Both the position numbers and the translations under genes were made by a program. The notes below the pieces were generated by a model, which searched no databases, had not been told where the DNA came from, and saw nothing but the letters and a program-made list of their open reading frames with translations. From Lachnospiraceae bacterium (GTDB lineage Bacteria > Bacillota > Clostridia > Lachnospirales > Lachnospiraceae), in NCBI GenBank assembly GCA_024403435.1, contig JAKSRV010000014.1:1-32681 (forward strand): a DNA stretch of 32,681 bases. The letters are read 5' to 3'. Positions 19,131 through 29,266 of this stretch are shown here, piece by piece. Positions within the stretch are counted from its first letter, which is position 1; every line of letters begins with the position of its first letter.

Positions 19131-19628
19131 ATGAGTTATAGCGTTGATTTACAAAAGCCGATGTCTTTTGCTGTATGGCCGATAGTTCTGGTGGGAGTGT
19201 TACTTCTGGGAGCGGTTATAGCATTGATTGTGGTTAAGGTTATAGAGAACAATCGAAGAAAAGCTGCTGAAAGAAAGCGTCTTGAGGAGGAGAGAAAGAA
19301 GGAGCCTGTAGTGGTAAAACCGTCACTTCAGGAACTTAAGACTACATATCTTGAGAAACTTGCACAGCTTGAAGCACAGTTCCTCGGTGGTCAGATTGAG
19401 AGCAGAGAAGCTTATACAGAGCTCAGTAATCTGTTCAGAACCTTTGTTTATGATGCGACCGGAACACCTGCGCATAAGTATACTTTGTATGATATGAGAG
19501 GTCTTGATAAGCCGATTGTATATAATCTTGTAAATAACTATTATGCCCCTGAGTTCTCTAAGGATACTAAGGGTAATGTTCTTGAATCTATTGATTTTAC
19601 AAAGAGGGCTGTATTTGAATGGAACTAA
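19131..19628 (+). CDS. Small single-pass membrane protein of the Bat-like operon
   Basis: A 165-residue protein with one hydrophobic segment (about residues 12-35, FAVWPIVLVGVLLLGAVI...), then a basic, charged linker (NNRRKAAERKRLEEERKKE) and a C-terminal helical region, LSNLFRTFVYDATGTPAHKYTLYDM. Topology by the positive-inside rule puts most of it in the cytoplasm. Position between DUF58 and VWA genes, and the tail pattern, resemble the small DUF4381/BatD-C-type partners of such operons, but I do not recognise a family firmly. GAGG lies 7 bases before ATG 19131. Its 3' end overlaps the next gene by 10 bases. Confidence 0.7.
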   Translation: MSYSVDLQKPMSFAVWPIVLVGVLLLGAVIALIVVKVIENNRRKAAERKRLEEERKKEPVVVKPSLQELKTTYLEKLAQLEAQFLGGQIESREAYTELSNLFRTFVYDATGTPAHKYTLYDMRGLDKPIVYNLVNNYYAPEFSKDTKGNVLESIDFTKRAVFEWN

Positions 19629-20647
19629 GATATGATTTTATGATTTATATATGTATCGCTTTGGTGATACTTGTCTCTATGTTCTTTGTTCTCTTTAACA
19701 CCAAGAAAAAGGGATATAAGGACGGTAAAAAAATAGCCGGTCTTGATTATGTAAGAAAAACCGGTTATTTCAAATTTAAGATGGTTTCGTTCAGAATTCT
19801 TTCTGTTTTAAGCCTTGTATCATTGGTTGGTTGCATAGTCTTCAGCTGCTTTATGATAGCAAGACCTTATGAGAGATATACCATTGAAGAAGAAAAATAT
19901 AGCAGAGATATTATTCTTTGTATGGATATTTCTACTTCTGTAGATGAACTGAATCAGTCACTTATGGGTTCGTTAAAAGAGACTGTTAAGGATCTTAAAA
20001 ATGAAAGAATAGGTATTTTGATTTTTAACACAACACCTGTTTTGCTTTGTCCCCTTACAGATGACTATGAATATGTGCTGAGTGTATTGGACCAGGTTGA
20101 TGAAAGCCTTAGAGCCAGAAATACATATATGTATTCATTCTGGAATGATTATGACGATCTTGCGTATGATTATGATTATATTTCTGAAGGAACTATAATC
20201 GGTAATGAGGAGCGTGGTAGTTCGCTTATCGGAGACGGACTTGCTGCTGCAGCTTATTCGTTTACAAGCGATGATCCGGACAGATCAAAGGTTGTTATTT
20301 TTTCTACGGATAATTGCCTTGAAGGTATTCCGCTTGTTACCACACAGGAAGCGGCCGATATTTGTACCAAAAACAATGTCGTTGTATATGGCGTCGGAAC
20401 ATACATGATGTATGACGATGACGAAGAAGCTATGAAAAAGGCTGTTGAGTCTACGGGCGGTAAGTATTACAGAGAAGACTATTCAGGCTCAATGAAGATG
20501 ATTGTAGAAGATATCGAGCAGATGAGTGGTGCTTTGATCGGAGGTACTAAGGAAGTAAGAGATTACGATGTCCCCGAAGGCCTGTTCGGTTGGTTACTGG
20601 CAACTACTATTATATTTATTGTTTCAGCAAGAGTGTTAAAACTATGA
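19619..20647 (+). CDS. Membrane-anchored VWA protein, BatA-like
   Basis: 342 residues: two N-terminal membrane segments (about 8-27 and 58-80), a von Willebrand A domain and a final membrane helix at about 322-339. The MIDAS motif is intact, DISTS at 103-107 in LCMDISTSVDE, and NERIGILIFNTTPVLLCPLTDDY is a typical VWA core. Topology places the VWA domain outside the membrane, as in BatA. The start ATG 19619 overlaps the preceding gene and has an AGAGGG ribosome site. It ends by an ATGA overlap with the second VWA gene, so the two are likely made in equal amounts. Confidence 0.85.
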   Translation: MELRYDFMIYICIALVILVSMFFVLFNTKKKGYKDGKKIAGLDYVRKTGYFKFKMVSFRILSVLSLVSLVGCIVFSCFMIARPYERYTIEEEKYSRDIILCMDISTSVDELNQSLMGSLKETVKDLKNERIGILIFNTTPVLLCPLTDDYEYVLSVLDQVDESLRARNTYMYSFWNDYDDLAYDYDYISEGTIIGNEERGSSLIGDGLAAAAYSFTSDDPDRSKVVIFSTDNCLEGIPLVTTQEAADICTKNNVVVYGVGTYMMYDDDEEAMKKAVESTGGKYYREDYSGSMKMIVEDIEQMSGALIGGTKEVRDYDVPEGLFGWLLATTIIFIVSARVLKL

Positions 20648-21615
20648 CGATTAATCCATTTATACCGATTCCGGTTATGGCAGTTATTTGTGTACTGCTA
20701 CTGGCATGTAAAAGAAAAGGAATATGGCCATATATCAGACAGATTGTTATGGTCCTTCTTATATTTGCAATAAATCTTAGGATAATGGTACCTAACGATG
20801 AGATGAAGGTAACAACCTATGAAATGAAAGCAAATGTTATTTTTGTTATTGATGATACCATCAGTATGGTTGCAAATGATATGGGCGACGGTCAGACAAG
20901 ACTTGATGCTGTAAAATCGGATTGCTCATACATTATTGATAATATGGTTGGAGCTAGATTTGCTGTCATTGACTTCCATAATATTTCGAATATTATGTGT
21001 CCGTTCAACGATGATGTCACATTTATTAAGAGCATAATCAATTCAATCAGACCTCTTGAAGAATGGGCAGCCAGAGGTACAGATATTTCTGTATGTAAGA
21101 AGAATTTACTTACTGAACTTAAGAGCGCTGAAGATAACGGCGCTTATACGGTTGTATTCTTCATCAGTGACGGTGAAGACAATAAGTGTGAGGAAGATTA
21201 CGGCTTCAGAGAATTGGCACAGTATATAGATGATGGTGCTGTACTTGGATATGGAACTGCCAAGGGCGGAGAGATGTATGTAAACTCTTATTATGATGAT
21301 GAGGATACTGAGCCTACTCCAATTACCACATATGATTATTCTATGGGTGCATATATGAATGCTATATCTAAGATGGACGAAGAGAATTTGAAGGATATAG
21401 CAAAGGATCTTGGCGTTGAATATGTATACATGGACAATACAAGTAAGCTGGATTCCTTGATTGATCATGTCCTGGACAATATTGAGGTTGGTGAACAGCA
21501 GAAGGTTGAAGCCGGTAAGGATGATACATATTATTATTTTGTAATTGCTTTGTTGGTAATGGTGCTTGTTGAGTGCTTCTTTACCAAAAAGCAACTTAGT
21601 GAAAGAAAAGTTTAA
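20644..21615 (+). CDS. Membrane-anchored VWA protein, BatB-like
   Basis: 323 residues: two N-terminal hydrophobic segments (about 5-22 and 30-49), a VWA domain, and a C-terminal membrane helix near 298-314. The MIDAS motif is DDTISM (70-75), a DxTxS variant of DxSxS, with a downstream RGTDIS threonine site and FFISDGEDN aspartate. ATG 20644 is set by the ATGA overlap with the previous gene; the open frame upstream from 20590 has no support. Paired VWA proteins with opposed anchoring are characteristic of Bat operons, and they may form a hetero-complex that the MoxR ATPase acts on. Confidence 0.83.
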   Translation: MTINPFIPIPVMAVICVLLLACKRKGIWPYIRQIVMVLLIFAINLRIMVPNDEMKVTTYEMKANVIFVIDDTISMVANDMGDGQTRLDAVKSDCSYIIDNMVGARFAVIDFHNISNIMCPFNDDVTFIKSIINSIRPLEEWAARGTDISVCKKNLLTELKSAEDNGAYTVVFFISDGEDNKCEEDYGFRELAQYIDDGAVLGYGTAKGGEMYVNSYYDDEDTEPTPITTYDYSMGAYMNAISKMDEENLKDIAKDLGVEYVYMDNTSKLDSLIDHVLDNIEVGEQQKVEAGKDDTYYYFVIALLVMVLVECFFTKKQLSERKV

Positions 21616-21632
21616 GAGTATTCGGTGAAATT

Positions 21633-22829
21633 ATGAAGAAAAAAATTTGTATTTCGGTTTGGGTTTTGTTTTTCATATTCTTTCTGATTCTTCTTGTGAA
21701 TACAATCAGTAATGAAGTAATGATTAACAAATACAACAAGCATGTTTATGAATTTAATAAGCTTTGGTTTCTTGGTTTTACACAGCCATATATCAGTTCT
21801 TTTAATAAGGGTGATATCTTGTTCCAAAAGGGTGAATACGAGATGGCTATTGCGCAGTATGATGATGCGCTTAACAAAATGCCTACCAAAGCAGCTGAAT
21901 GTGATATTCGAGTAAATAAATCACTTGCGATGCTTAAACTCATTGATGTGACTGTTGATTCCAAGGATGATATCGATCCTATTATCGATCAGCTTCTTGA
22001 AGTTGAGGAAGTGCTTTTGGAAAAAGGATGCGCTAACGAAGATCAGGAAAGCGGTCATGATGAAGAAGCTCAGATTCTTTACAATGAAATTGAAAGTTAC
22101 ATTGAGTATTATGCCGATATAAAGGATACATTTACATTCTATGGAAATAAGTATCTTTATGACAGCAGAGGAAATCAGAGACAGTTAAGCGGTGGTGATT
22201 TTAATTTCTCATTTACCGAGGTGGCTGATGAGAACAAAACAGAATTGAGCGGAGCCGTAGAACATGTTTCTCAAAATGAATCTGACGGATTTATCAAGTT
22301 TACTACTATAACATACAAGGTTGAGGATGCCGGAACACATTATTATTATGTACATGAGATTGATGACGGCAACCCTATGATTAAGTATGCTGAAGAAGAG
22401 TATGTTGTACAGGTTGATCTGACAGTATCCTATAACGGTCGTACATTGGATGCTGTAGTAACTTTACATGCGGACGATCCTATAGCTACTGAACTTAGAT
22501 TTGCTAACTTTATCATGATAAATGAAGATCAGAGCGGCGGTGGCGGAGGAGATTCTGATGATCCTAATCAGGATCCTAACCAGGATCCCAACCAGGATCC
22601 CGGACAAGACCCCAATCAGGACCCTAATCAGGATCCAAACCAGAATCCTGACCAAGATCCTAATCAAGATCCCAACCAGGATCCTGCCAACGGTCAAGAG
22701 GAGCCTGAAGAAGTTGATCCCATTCAGCAGCAGCTTGAAGAATATATGAATCAGGCTAATCAGGACAGAGAAGATACGCTTAATCACGATCAGGCGGATT
22801 ATCATTATTATGACGGTGATTGTTGGTAA
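21633..22829 (+). CDS. Anchored TPR protein with a pilin-type isopeptide-like domain and DPNQ repeats
   Basis: 398 residues, with an order I do not know from a described protein. An uncleaved signal anchor (about 5-23) is followed by a TPR-like helix pair (54-85, NKGDILFQKGEYEMAIAQYDDALNKMP pattern). Residues about 165-296 form a beta-rich region resembling the FctA/Spy0128 pilin isopeptide domain: K173 in GNKYLY, FNFSFTEV (190-197), THYYYVHEID (235-244, E242) and RFANF (289-293, N292) match the usual Lys / Glu / Asn positions. A glycine-rich hinge leads into eleven DPNQ-type units (310-353), then a Q/N-rich tail ending YDGDCW. TPR proteins close BatABC-type operons, which fits. It starts 17 bases after the BatB-like gene. 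The isopeptide assignment is by eye. Confidence 0.7.
   Translation: MKKKICISVWVLFFIFFLILLVNTISNEVMINKYNKHVYEFNKLWFLGFTQPYISSFNKGDILFQKGEYEMAIAQYDDALNKMPTKAAECDIRVNKSLAMLKLIDVTVDSKDDIDPIIDQLLEVEEVLLEKGCANEDQESGHDEEAQILYNEIESYIEYYADIKDTFTFYGNKYLYDSRGNQRQLSGGDFNFSFTEVADENKTELSGAVEHVSQNESDGFIKFTTITYKVEDAGTHYYYVHEIDDGNPMIKYAEEEYVVQVDLTVSYNGRTLDAVVTLHADDPIATELRFANFIMINEDQSGGGGGDSDDPNQDPNQDPNQDPGQDPNQDPNQDPNQNPDQDPNQDPNQDPANGQEEPEEVDPIQQQLEEYMNQANQDREDTLNHDQADYHYYDGDCW
22560..22691 (+). repeat. Eleven 12-bp tandem units encoding DPNQ-like tetrapeptides
   Basis: Eleven consecutive 12-bp units (22560-22691) encode mostly D-P-N-Q, with variants DPGQ, NPDQ and a final DPAN. Codons vary between units (GAT/GAC, CCT/CCC/CCA, AAT/AAC, CAG/CAA) while the peptide is kept. 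Copy number could vary between strains. Confidence 0.95.
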
Positions 22830-22998: not shown

Positions 22999-23313
22999 TT
23001 AATCGAGATCGTCATATTCAAGTTCATCGAGATACTCATCAAACGCATCTGCTACGATTTCATATTCTTCATCGCTGTCGATATATATGAGTTCGGGCTC
23101 TTCGTTAGGATCATTGGGATTCTCTTTGTAGCCGTAGAACCAAATCTCAGATTCATCATCTGAGGCTCCTTCGGGCTTATAAAGTAATACGATATAATCC
23201 TTGTCATCTATTGAAATTATAGTAATAACCTCGCATTCAACTGAACCGAGTTCATCGAGTTCAAGAGTTACGCTCATTTGCTCCTTGGGAGCCTCGAAAG
23301 TTTTTTTACTCAT
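22999..23313 (-). CDS. DUF1292 domain protein
   Basis: A 104-residue, very acidic protein with the DUF1292 pattern: LDELGSVECEVITIISIDDKDYIVLLYKPEG, then EIWFYGYKEN and a closing EEYEIVADAFDEYLDEL. This family of small cytoplasmic proteins is common in Firmicutes and has no established function. AAGGAG lies 6 bases before the start on the - strand. It is transcribed away from the GH13-like gene by a divergent, overlapping promoter pair, and has its own terminator downstream. Confidence 0.88.
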   Translation of the reverse strand: MSKKTFEAPKEQMSVTLELDELGSVECEVITIISIDDKDYIVLLYKPEGASDDESEIWFYGYKENPNDPNEEPELIYIDSDEEYEIVADAFDEYLDELEYDDLD

Positions 23314-23360: not shown

Positions 23361-23389
23361 ATTATACCTTCTTGTTTATCCTTTAGCAA
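23361..23389 (-). promoter_or_regulatory. Promoter for the DUF1292 gene
   Basis: On the - strand: TTGCTA (23389-23384), 17-bp spacer, TATAAT (23366-23361). The spacer overlaps the -35 box of the divergent + promoter, so the two promoters probably interfere. Confidence 0.7.
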
Positions 23390-23400
23390 TAAGCTATAAT
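23372..23400 (+). promoter_or_regulatory. Promoter for the GH13-like gene, predicts a leaderless mRNA
   Basis: TTGTTT (23372-23377), 17-bp spacer, TATAAT (23395-23400). Standard geometry puts the transcription start near 23407, one base before the ATG at 23408. No Shine-Dalgarno precedes that ATG, which agrees with leaderless translation. Confidence 0.65.
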
Positions 23401-23407
23401 TTATGAC

Positions 23408-25318
23408 ATGAGTAAACATTTCAATTTTTATAACAATAATATATATAGTAATTCGCTGAAAGCTGTTCCTACTGATTCGGGATGCTTATTTTATATTGAT
23501 TGTATCGAGGCTAAGAAATCATATGAATCAAGCAAGGTGAATATGCACGCATGTGTATTACCTGCCGAGGAAGCATATAAAGAAGCGATGGTAAATATCG
23601 CAGTTTCAAGCTCTGACATGAATGCTGTGGGTTCTAATGACAATGTTGAAATCGGTGTTGCGGTATATGATATAAAAACAGGCTTGCCGGTTGGTAAGTA
23701 TTCTGCTCAAAATGCTTCATATACAGGTTCGATATATTCTGTATTTATTGCAGATTATAAGTATAACGAGTGGGCATATGCCTTTTATTATAATGAATAT
23801 GTATATACAGATATAAGAGCCGACAGATATATTGACAAACCTGCTTACGGAGACTTTGTAAATGCGCTTCCTCTGAAAGCTGTGATTGATGTTAATCAGG
23901 AATTTGGTGATGACAATAAACCACAGATTCGTTACGAGGATGCGTTTGTATATCAGCTTCATGTAAGAGGATTTACAAAACATTCATCATCAGGTACCAA
24001 ATATAAGGGAACCTTTAGAGGCGTAATTGATAAGCTTGGTTATTTGAAAGAATTAGGTGTTACCACGCTTGAGTTTCAGCCTGTGAATGAGTTTAACGAA
24101 TGTGATTCCAAGACCGGAAGACTCAATTATTGGGGATATTGTCCGGGATTTTATTATGCTCCAAAGTCAGCATACTCATATTCGAAAAATACATCAGCTG
24201 AGTTTATCGATATGGTAAGAGCAATTCATTCCAATGATCAGGAAATCATTTTGCAGATGTATTTTGCAAATGATTTTTCAAAACGGGAGATTGTTTCTAT
24301 CCTCGAATATTGGACTGTTAAATACCATATTGACGGTTTCCATTTGCTGAGCGAGAATGCACCGATTGATTTGATTGACAGCAGTTCTTTACTTAAAGGA
24401 AGTAAGATCTGGTGTGACAGACTTGACGGTGCAAATATAGATAATGCAATTACAGGTGTGGCGCGAGACAGACGTTATGCTCTTTACAGAGATGATTATA
24501 TGTATTCTATGCGCAGATTCTTGAAGGCTGATGAGTATTCAATAAATGATGCCATAGGAAAAATGCGTGAAAACCATGAAGGTTATGCCAATATAAATTA
24601 TTTTGGCGCATTTAATACGTTTACTCTTACCGATATGGTTTCTTATGAAAGAAAGAGAAACGAAGATAATGGTGAGGATAATCGCGACGGCAGTGATTAT
24701 AACTGCAGCTGGAATTGCGGTGAAGAGGGAGCTTCGAGAAAAACAAAGGTATTGGCTCTTCGAAAGAAGCAGGTTAAAAATGCATTGTTGATGTTAATGC
24801 TGAGCGCAGGTACCCCGATGATTTATATGGGTGATGAATTGGGACGTACACAGCTTGGTAATAATAACCCATATTGTTTAGATAATAAAATAACTTGGGT
24901 TGACTGGAATTTGGCTAAAAAGCAGAATAATCGCATTGATTTTATTAAGACTGCAATAGGCATCAGAAAATCAATGGATGTTTTACATTCCGCTCGTGAG
25001 TTGTCAATGGTGGATGTATGCGGTTGCGGATATCCTGAATTGTCATATCATGGTGAAAGTGCATGGAAATCACAGACTGAAGGACACAGACATGAATTTG
25101 GTGTAATGTTTTGCGATAACGGAAAGCTGCTGTATATGGCTATAAACATGCATTGGGAGTCTGCTGTTTTGTCTATGCCGAGACCACCGAAGGGTTATGA
25201 CTGGAAATTGATTCTTACTACATCCGATGAAAAGTCTGATGAAGAAGTAGCTGAGTTAAGTGTTAAACTTTCGGAACATACTATAGCATTGTATGAAATA
25301 TGTAAAAAAGTAAAGTGA
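23408..25318 (+). CDS. GH13-family GlgX/isoamylase-like protein, predicted catalytically inactive
   Basis: 636 residues: an N-terminal beta domain resembling CBM48 (about 20-145), then an alpha-amylase TIM-barrel scaffold (from about 176, DAFVYQLHVRGFTKH) and a C-terminal beta domain. Strong GlgX-type landmarks remain: YWGYCPGFYYAPKSAYS (241-257), NGEDNRDGSDYNCSWNCGEEG (421-441) and GTPMIYMGDELGRTQ (468-482). The four catalytic regions are degenerate. Region I has Q283, A287 and N288 where D, N and H are expected; region II reads GFHLLSE, with L314 at the nucleophile; region III has D337 for the acid/base Glu; region IV has F402 and N403 for His-Asp. I infer a glycan-binding or regulatory pseudoenzyme. 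No ribosome site precedes ATG 23408. The DUF5662 gene follows 15 bases later. Confidence 0.85.
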   Translation: MSKHFNFYNNNIYSNSLKAVPTDSGCLFYIDCIEAKKSYESSKVNMHACVLPAEEAYKEAMVNIAVSSSDMNAVGSNDNVEIGVAVYDIKTGLPVGKYSAQNASYTGSIYSVFIADYKYNEWAYAFYYNEYVYTDIRADRYIDKPAYGDFVNALPLKAVIDVNQEFGDDNKPQIRYEDAFVYQLHVRGFTKHSSSGTKYKGTFRGVIDKLGYLKELGVTTLEFQPVNEFNECDSKTGRLNYWGYCPGFYYAPKSAYSYSKNTSAEFIDMVRAIHSNDQEIILQMYFANDFSKREIVSILEYWTVKYHIDGFHLLSENAPIDLIDSSSLLKGSKIWCDRLDGANIDNAITGVARDRRYALYRDDYMYSMRRFLKADEYSINDAIGKMRENHEGYANINYFGAFNTFTLTDMVSYERKRNEDNGEDNRDGSDYNCSWNCGEEGASRKTKVLALRKKQVKNALLMLMLSAGTPMIYMGDELGRTQLGNNNPYCLDNKITWVDWNLAKKQNNRIDFIKTAIGIRKSMDVLHSARELSMVDVCGCGYPELSYHGESAWKSQTEGHRHEFGVMFCDNGKLLYMAINMHWESAVLSMPRPPKGYDWKLILTTSDEKSDEEVAELSVKLSEHTIALYEICKKVK

Positions 25319-25333
25319 TATAGGGAGATATAT

Positions 25334-25879
25334 ATGGGAAAAGCGTGGAAACATTTTTGTACCATTGCTCGCCATAGAAGACTCGTAAGAAAAGGTTGCT
25401 TTGCCATTGGTTTATATTGGCAGGGTTTGACTCATGATCTTTCAAAATTCAGTCCGAGTGAGTTTAATGTGGGAGCAAAATATTTCCAGGGTGACAGAAG
25501 TCCAAACAATGCAGAACGTGAAGATATAGGCTATTCATCTGCCTGGCTTCATCATAAGGGCAGAAATAAGCATCATTACGAATATTGGATAGATTACAAT
25601 TCTCACTATAGAAAAGGTGATTGTGAAGTGATGGTGCCGGTACCGATGCCTGACAGATATATAGCAGAAATGCTGATGGACAGAATTGCGGCAAGTAAGG
25701 TGTACAGAGGAGATAAGTATACGGATAAAGATCCTTTGGATTATTATTACAGCGGTACTCAAGATGCACCTTTGCATGAATATACAAGAAGCAAATTGCT
25801 TCATTATCTTGAAATGCTTGCTGAAAAAGGTGAAAAAGAAACCTTTGCGGCGATAAAAAAAGAGCTTGTTAAGAAGTGA
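25334..25879 (+). CDS. DUF5662 family protein
   Basis: 181 residues, full length. The family pattern is clear: WQGLTHDLSKFSPSEF (29-44), KYFQGDRSPNNAERED and SSAWLHHKGRNKHHYEYWID (68-87), then MPDRYIAEMLMDRIAASKVYRGDKYTD. Conserved H, D and HHxxxNxHH suggest a metal-binding helical fold, but no activity is known. GGGAG precedes the ATG. It is 15 bases downstream of the GH13-like gene and shares its promoter. The stop codon lies inside the downstream terminator hairpin. Confidence 0.85.
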   Translation: MGKAWKHFCTIARHRRLVRKGCFAIGLYWQGLTHDLSKFSPSEFNVGAKYFQGDRSPNNAEREDIGYSSAWLHHKGRNKHHYEYWIDYNSHYRKGDCEVMVPVPMPDRYIAEMLMDRIAASKVYRGDKYTDKDPLDYYYSGTQDAPLHEYTRSKLLHYLEMLAEKGEKETFAAIKKELVKK

Positions 25880-28333: not shown

Positions 28334-29266
28334 ATGAAAAACAATAATCCCACACGTTTGAGGGGGATGCTCAACGTTTTAAGAAAAGTATCAAAAAAAA
28401 TAGCCATTCCTATATGCACAGCATTGGTAATACCTTTGTTCGTAAGCTTTGCATCCGCAGAGGGTGAGGACGGATATGTGCCTGATAATCAGGCACCCGT
28501 TGTTGATCCTGCGGATCCGGCAAATCCTGAACAGCCTGTCGAGGCAGAAATAACCGAACAACCTACGGTTATTGAAGAAACCTCCGACTTGTATCTTACC
28601 GATGCTGTGCTTAATAGCGCGCTCGAAAGATACGGAATAGCAAATAAAGAAAATTTATACGATCCAAACACCAGTTATGACGGTTACAATTTTGACCCTA
28701 ATGACGGAAGATTGATTCTTATAAATAAGACTCACTCTATACCGGATGGTTACAAAGTCGAATTGGGTACCGTTTATGGTTCATGGCAGTGTGATAAAAG
28801 AGCTGTCGAGGATGTATTGTTGTTGATAAGAGATGCAAGAAAAGCCGGAACCGGTCTTTATATTGCATCGCCTTACAGAACATCATCAATGCAGGTATCT
28901 CTTTATAACAATAAGATTACCAAGTTTATGAATACAGGCATGAGCTATTTGGAGGCTTATAAGCTTGCAGGTCAGGCAGTTACAATACCCGGCACCAGTG
29001 AGCACGAGGCCGGTCTTTGCTTTGATTTCCTGTGCGATTCATACAAATCTCTCAGTGAGGGCTTTGAAAATACAAGCGCAGGCAAATGGCTTGCTGAAAA
29101 TGCACATAAATATGGATTTATTCTCAGATATCCTAAAGAGAAAGAATATATTACGACAATCGAGTATGAACCCTGGCATTTCAGATATGTAGGTGTGGAA
29201 GCAGCTACCGTTATGTACGAGCAGGGTATTACATTAGAAGAATTTTGGGAGATTTACCTTGACTGA
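28334..29266 (+). CDS. D-alanyl-D-alanine carboxypeptidase, VanY/M15B family
   Basis: Zinc peptidase expected to trim the terminal D-Ala of peptidoglycan stem peptides outside the membrane. A signal sequence covers residues 1-42 (basic start, hydrophobic core 23-38, ASA before the likely cleavage), followed by a proline/acidic linker (47-80). The catalytic domain shows SPYRTSSMQ (179-187), SEHEAGLCFDF (222-232: zinc ligands H224 and D231) and EYEPWHFRYVG (277-287: catalytic E279, zinc ligand H282). 310 residues. The start at 28334 has a weak GGA ribosome site. No vanR/S or other van genes are here, so a housekeeping wall role rather than resistance is likely. Its stop overlaps tgt by 8 bases. 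Confidence 0.9.
   Translation: MKNNNPTRLRGMLNVLRKVSKKIAIPICTALVIPLFVSFASAEGEDGYVPDNQAPVVDPADPANPEQPVEAEITEQPTVIEETSDLYLTDAVLNSALERYGIANKENLYDPNTSYDGYNFDPNDGRLILINKTHSIPDGYKVELGTVYGSWQCDKRAVEDVLLLIRDARKAGTGLYIASPYRTSSMQVSLYNNKITKFMNTGMSYLEAYKLAGQAVTIPGTSEHEAGLCFDFLCDSYKSLSEGFENTSAGKWLAENAHKYGFILRYPKEKEYITTIEYEPWHFRYVGVEAATVMYEQGITLEEFWEIYLD

Follow-up and report, generated by a model that had tools for sequence, protein, structure and literature searches.

A GlgX/isoamylase-like protein without the GH13 catalytic triad is retained across Lachnospiraceae

We have found that a gene of a Lachnospiraceae bacterium, located at 23408..25318 on the forward strand of the window (the whole stretch of DNA analysed here, 32,681 nucleotides of contig JAKSRV010000014.1), encodes a 636-aa protein that, to judge from its sequence, is a member of the GlgX/isoamylase-like (GH13_11) lineage without the GH13 triad. 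We refer to this protein and its orthologues as dead GlgX. The initial annotation had described the gene as intact and the reading frame is indeed open over exactly 23408-25318. With the nucleophile loop deleted, and with the acid/base residue, the transition-state Asp and the residues of regions I and IV lost, the GH13 retaining mechanism would not be possible in the form in which it is known, and we consider it very probable that the protein is not a GH13 hydrolase. Its family-wide retention under strong selection points to a non-enzymatic, probably glycogen-binding, job that had previously gone unnoticed, and dead GlgX in this respect parallels what plants did with isoamylase 2 (ISA2).

The nearest sequence relatives of the protein are GlgX and isoamylase, and its top PDB matches are plant isoamylase 1, GlgX and TreX, with plant ISA2 also among the matches. 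It scores 263 bits against TIGR02100, the NCBIfam model for GlgX, which is below the cut-off of 641, and the Pfam alpha-amylase model PF00128 matches it in two pieces at 40 bits; it counts as a GH13_11/GlgX enzyme neither on the triad nor on the TIGR02100 cut-off. The CBM48 profile matches 8 of 61 dead GlgX members, and isoamylase C-terminal profiles match 21 and 17 of the same 61.

All of the residues that the initial annotation had named in the four catalytic regions (Q283, A287, N288, H312, L314, D337, F402 and N403) are found in the sequence. We aligned the protein and its short orthologues with 20 of the 22 intact, longer paralogues of the genus, which have frames of 732-821 aa. The region I remnant EIILQMYFAND (residues 279-289; 24242..24274, forward strand) lies where these paralogues have EVILDVVFNHT or near variants, and position 283 is E in 100 and Q in 88 of 217 dead sequences. 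In region II the loss of residues stands, but the simple change from D to L that had been proposed does not: compared with the intact genus paralogues, 14-15 residues that include the nucleophile loop are deleted at the remnant HIDGFHLLSENAPI (residues 307-320; 24326..24367, forward strand). The spacing between D309 and K333 is 23-24 in every one of the 217 distinct dead sequences that have data here, compared with 38 in all 30 intact GlgX, and the deletion is therefore common to all dead forms. The acid/base Glu is replaced by D337 in the region III remnant GSKIWCDRLDG (residues 331-341; 24398..24430, forward strand), as had been noted, but this is not a fixed E-to-D change, since position 337 varies across the dead sequences (D in 55, E in 36, Y in 27, T in 17 and others, of 218). 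The His-Asp pair of region IV has become F402-N403 in the remnant INYFGAFNTFTLTDM (residues 396-410; 24593..24637, forward strand), position 403 being N in 91, D in 40, R in 20 and others, of 217. The former catalytic positions of dead forms differ between genera. The intact genus paralogues keep DVVFNH, DGFRFDLA, AEAW and HDGFT, all four of which are lost in the short orthologues.

On a gap-free reading, a full Asp-Glu-Asp triad is present in 0 of 217 dead sequences, a result that supports the loss across the orthologues, and an Asp lies in the nucleophile register of just two of the 217 (L185 and L216), neither of which has the acid/base Glu. In 229 non-intact alignment rows (219 distinct sequences) there is a gap at the nucleophile column, a count that hinges on gap placement; two of the 219 are without data at the nucleophile register, giving the 217. 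The full triad is present in 30 of 30 intact GlgX controls. This contrast between dead and intact forms is partly one of definition, because the nucleophile column was used in sorting them; the loop spacing and the tree described below are independent of the sorting.

The same catalytic loss is shared by orthologues throughout the family. In a sample of 120 Lachnospiraceae genomes from 119 genera, a profile search gave a match in 102, three of which have intact GlgX only (G033, G072 and G076); in the remaining 99 genomes we read one sequence each (L072-L101, L182-L199 and L228-L278), all of them dead. Within the window's genus a dead orthologue was read in 30 of 31 genomes (those of L031, L034 and L035 being partial), and the 31st, G030, has intact GlgX and otherwise matches over just 73 C-terminal residues, within a frame of 140 aa. 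Among the best 80 of 590 relatives in a named collection, 77 are dead forms, nearly all of them from Lachnospiraceae and including those of Hungatella effluvii, Lachnospira multipara and Velocimicrobium porci, and three are intact GlgX. Outside the family, no dead form was found among the approximately 168 non-family genomes of the 196 in an order sample, none of which gave a match above 279 bits; complete dead forms score about 430 bits and up in one piece, or are split into two pieces. Thirteen of these order genomes gave a weaker match, four of which were read and are intact (L224-L227) and nine of which were judged by score alone. Neither was a dead form found among the approximately 393 non-family genomes of the 398 in a phylum sample, where no match went past E 1e-93, a limit at which fragmented dead forms would be missed. 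Both non-family totals come from kinship-sorted listings in which most matchless genomes are not itemised. The earlier remark that loss of the whole catalytic set is unusual in bacteria thus agrees with what we find outside the family but not with the Lachnospiraceae sample, in which it is the rule.

Close pairs of dead sequences have dN/dS values well below 1. With pairs of saturated dS set aside, and with some pairs being fragments or sharing a sequence, nearly all values lie at 0.03-0.11 (for example 0.042 for L010/L014, 0.062 for L205/L206 and 0.108 for L030/L028), the highest being 0.163 (L168/L169), which is similar to the range of 0.02-0.12 for pairs of intact GlgX. No decay is seen in the orthologues, in which frames are open and selection is purifying, and the earlier statement that the gene is not decaying is borne out. 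A protein whose catalytic residues are lost while its gene stays open and under purifying selection is, on these sequence grounds, what is called a pseudoenzyme. In a tree built on 557 columns, with the catalytic neighbourhoods left out, 29 intact and 212 dead sequences are split by a stem of 0.65 with a support of 1.0, the split being read from an unrooted tree; a value of 0.801 belongs to a rerooted version of it. Together, the shared loop deletion and this split suggest that the catalytic loss had a single origin, and the best reading is that dead GlgX was fixed early in Lachnospiraceae. At 43 alignment positions, 29 of them after region IV, the same residue is present in at least 95% of both dead and intact sequences. 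Dead GlgX is like the bacterial GlgX/TreX enzymes (GH13_11), its nearest relatives over most of its length, in its signature blocks and distal sugar-contact positions, and unlike them in its missing triad, its shorter nucleophile loop, its separate clade and its low TIGR02100 score.

A report on Streptomyces venezuelae GlgX in complex with acarbose gives Trp222, Tyr224, His271, Asp342, Glu378, Trp380 and His449 as contacts at the -1 subsite, and Arg212, Glu470, Asn534 and Tyr536 as other sugar contacts (PMC9530166). We mapped these positions by alignment to solved GlgX, using a numbering offset of +3 anchored on the nucleophile. Of the -1 contacts in that list, Trp222 and Tyr224 correspond to W242 and Y244, His271 to N288, Glu378 to D337, Trp380 to L339 and His449 to F402, and Asp342 is deleted; of the others, Glu470, Asn534 and Tyr536 correspond to E423, N487 and Y489, and Arg212 is not kept. 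The aromatic pair lies in W242-G243-Y244 (24131..24139, forward strand), where W is present in 217 of 217 dead sequences and the second position is Y in 180 or F in 37 of 217. E423 lies in a GlgX signature block with invariant columns (residues 418-441; 24659..24730, forward strand) and is E in 213 of 217, whereas 25 of 30 intact GlgX compared have W at this position. N487 and Y489 lie in the block GDELGRTQLGNNNPYCLD (residues 475-492; 24830..24883, forward strand), with N in 216 of 216 and with Y in 202 or W in 14 of 216. As a background, 92 of 498 positions are conserved at 85% or more, and Y244 falls just under this level. The equivalents of the catalytic set (His271, Glu378, His449 and Asp450) drift in dead forms, and only 51 of 202 dead sequences have W at the Trp380-equivalent position. 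This pattern fits a groove that would hold glucan without cutting it. Folding constraints could give a similar picture, as the kept contacts lie in well-conserved blocks of the fold and may be kept for folding.

We propose that dead GlgX is a non-catalytic alpha-glucan-binding regulator or scaffold, a proposal to which we give about an even chance. A non-catalytic member of the GlgX/isoamylase group, kept by strong purifying selection, would bind alpha-1,4-glucan chains in what was once its substrate groove, using the -1 aromatic pair and the distal sugar contacts, and would act on glycogen as a bound regulator or scaffold, either steering GlgP, GlgB or GlgA or shaping the polymer, as has been proposed for plant ISA2. 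A GlgX partner would not be required, as GlgX is not seen in about two thirds of carriers. The initial annotation had also favored glycan binding, glycogen regulation or scaffolding over hydrolysis; the part of this view that concerns hydrolysis agrees with our findings, in that the protein does not appear to be a GH13 hydrolase of the known kind, and the other part, which the kept contact positions support indirectly, is the best reading at about an even chance. That the gene is instead a decaying pseudogene or an assembly artefact might be suspected from its source assembly, which is 81% complete and in 168 contigs, but this reading has next to no probability and is refuted by the open frames (at least 560 aa in 97 of 99 carriers, with those of L194 and L278 cut by contig ends), by the purifying selection on close pairs and by the orthologues in named isolates such as H. 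effluvii and L. multipara. It is also quite unlikely that dead GlgX is an obligate non-catalytic subunit of genuine GlgX, as ISA2 is for isoamylase 1. The dead form is present in 32 of 35 family genomes with GlgX and in 67 of 85 without, which is in the direction expected of a subunit, but the association is weak (Fisher p = 0.12). Furthermore, genuine GlgX accompanies the dead form in 32 of 99 carriers and 65-67 carriers show none, among them the genome of the window, so that a pairing of the ISA2 type is not a general rule; these counts of intact GlgX in the family sample are based on match patterns, and G067 and G116 are uncertain.

Two further readings of dead GlgX were considered. The fold may have been put to a new use that has nothing to do with alpha-glucans, such as a structural partnership with the DUF5662 protein or a part in a cell-envelope or nucleotide-signalling process, with the GlgX blocks retained for folding only. 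The constant DUF5662 neighbour described below, the free drift of the old catalytic pocket, the lack of an adjacent glg gene in the window and the failure of PF08323 to track the presence of dead GlgX would all be accommodated by such a role, which we regard as possible though doubtful, given that the distal sugar-contact positions are among the best kept and include E423, which differs from most intact GlgX. Alternatively, the protein may still be an alpha-glucan enzyme, with a re-invented active site. Such a site would account for glycogen debranching in carriers that have neither GlgX nor type I pullulanase: 31 of 41 searched GlgX-less carriers are also without TIGR02104 above its cut-off, and all have PF08323, although this tally, made among 80 genomes of which some are incomplete, covers GlgX and TIGR02104 alone among debranching enzymes. 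Position D536, conserved at 98% in dead forms and mostly G in the intact forms compared, could be thought of as part of a new site. However, the triad is not replaced by any conserved acid, residues at the old catalytic positions change from genus to genus and just four positions are newly fixed in dead forms, and we therefore regard a re-invented site as very improbable.

PF08323, the GlgA-type family, is present in 80 of 80 family genomes searched, including all 21 searched non-carriers (18 matchless and three with intact GlgX only). As non-carriers have it too, there is no presence/absence link between dead GlgX and glycogen synthesis, and glycogen synthase as a presence/absence partner gave no signal. 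Of the 31 genomes of the genus, 30 have GlgP and 28 have GlgB scoring above the cut-off. The genome of the window, at its 81% completeness, has one PF08323 match, two GlgP matches and no GlgB match. No glg gene is adjacent to dead glgX in the window. We note that in 12 congeners a second, divergent branching-enzyme-like gene (frame of about 735-790 aa) lies some 14-18 kb from dead glgX on the same contig (for example G009:C17:24171-25517 and G002:C6:185039-186385); its equivalent in the window would fall beyond the contig end.

The gene that follows dead glgX by 15 bp (25334..25879, forward strand) encodes a DUF5662 protein of 181 aa (PF18907, 124.7 bits). Of 50 genomes with both genes, 30 have DUF5662 on the same strand no more than 1.5 kb downstream of dead glgX, and in 22 of these 30 the distance is no more than 150 bp; the number expected by chance is about 0.00025 per genome. 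It is the next gene in 45 of the 88 neighbourhoods in which a next gene is present (one genome being counted twice), overlapping by four bases in 13 of the 45, and in several genomes a TraX gene (PF05857) lies between the two. The DUF5662 gene is a probable operon partner of dead glgX, and its product probably works with dead GlgX. As a presence/absence partner DUF5662 is unsupported: 50 of the 59 carriers have it, but so do 14 of the 21 non-carriers (Fisher p = 0.11), and only its position is linked. Overall, 64 of 80 family genomes have DUF5662, compared with 0 of 14 control genomes. Strictly conserved His/Asp/Glu positions of DUF5662 include H34-D35, H73-H74, H80-H81 and D116. We take the invariant His and Asp residues to resemble those of an HD-type hydrolase, and the protein is possibly a metal-dependent hydrolase. 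A search of DUF5662 against solved structures gave no match up to E = 10, and no paper naming DUF5662 was found in the open-licence PMC literature. One could imagine a two-protein Lachnospiraceae module in which dead GlgX senses or docks onto glycogen via its old groove and controls the putative DUF5662 hydrolase, so that the state of glycogen would be converted into a small-molecule signal, but we consider this rather unlikely. Elsewhere in the window, 19619-22829 holds a pair of von Willebrand factor A genes along with a gene for a 398-aa protein that gives TPR-like and pilin isopeptide (FctA/TIGR03786) matches and ends in a long tail of DPNQ repeats, and 28334-29266 encodes a relative of VanY-like D,D-carboxypeptidases (153 bits, compared with a resistance-family cut-off of 400).

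A close parallel is known from plants. A study of ISA2 describes this protein as a GH13_11 paralogue that is non-catalytic and has persisted throughout Chloroplastida, with at least four of five conserved residues changed in every ISA2 examined, and multiple glucan-binding sites are proposed for complexes of ISA2 and isoamylase 1 (PMC12510319). Dead GlgX resembles ISA2, as described there, in being a GH13_11 protein whose catalytic residues are lost and which is kept by selection; unlike ISA2, it is bacterial and mostly without a GlgX partner. Isoamylase 1 scores 421 bits and ISA2 227 bits in profile searches, and from these scores the loss in dead GlgX was probably independent of that in ISA2. 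Our best reading is that ISA2 is a close functional analogue of dead GlgX, which would be its bacterial counterpart. The ectodomains of 4F2hc and rBAT are alpha-amylase-family relatives called 'fake or orphan' glucosidases in another report (PMC8537225); they have the GH13 fold, and by that description alone they too can be likened to dead GlgX. Those proteins differ in being membrane-anchored subunits of animal transporters. GlgC and GlgD belong to a different enzyme family and act in synthesis, not in debranching. Blautia obeum is a member of Lachnospiraceae. A review describes GlgC and GlgD as a catalytic and a regulatory subunit, which, like dead GlgX as we propose it, provides a regulatory homologue in a bacterial glycogen pathway, and lists two glgX homologues for B. 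obeum (PMC10395257).

No bacterial counterpart of ISA2 was found in the open-licence PMC literature, and in two thirds of the text of a 2024 review of prokaryotic alpha-glucan enzymes the terms 'pseudoenzyme' and 'catalytically inactive' are absent and 'non-catalytic' occurs twice. Judged against the open-licence PMC literature, dead GlgX would be the first bacterial GlgX pseudoenzyme reported to span a family. Surveys based on homology are likely to count the dead form as glgX, a possible case being the two homologues listed for B. obeum, and since it is the sole GlgX-like gene seen in 65-67 of the 99 carriers, the debranching capacity of this large gut and rumen family may have been over-counted. 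How many Lachnospiraceae debranch glycogen thus becomes a testable question.

Lastly, the gene appears to have its own promoter, as the initial annotation had stated. A generic promoter scan gave no signal (15 sites compared with 14.7 in shuffles, no excess), yet a 40-bp block at -47 to -8 (23361..23400, forward strand), containing TTGTTT, 17 nt and TATAAT, is conserved in ten genomes of the genus. These include that of the window, the proteins of the others being 48-64% identical to the window's, and 31 of the 40 positions are invariant among them, compared with none of the 63 positions upstream of the block in the same ten genomes. Searching 31 genus genomes with the pattern gave one match in each of the ten, at the dead-glgX gene, with 0 in a reversed control and no match in the other 21 that might have indicated a regulon; a conserved block with a single match places the claim of an own promoter on better evidence. 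Upstream lies a gene for a DUF1292-like protein of 104 aa (22999..23313, reverse strand; assigned from its translation, a similar L058 protein matching PF06949) that is divergent and so leaves room for a promoter, and 25 of 94 neighbourhoods, with some few genomes counted twice, contain this DUF1292-like cluster. The -10 box stops 7 nt short of the ATG at 23408 and no Shine-Dalgarno match precedes this ATG, so that dead-glgX transcripts are probably leaderless. No RNA element was detected in the window at the Rfam gathering score. Within 23361-23400 the spacer GCAATAAG is conserved too, and CTTGTT and AATAAG form an imperfect inverted repeat that is perhaps an operator.
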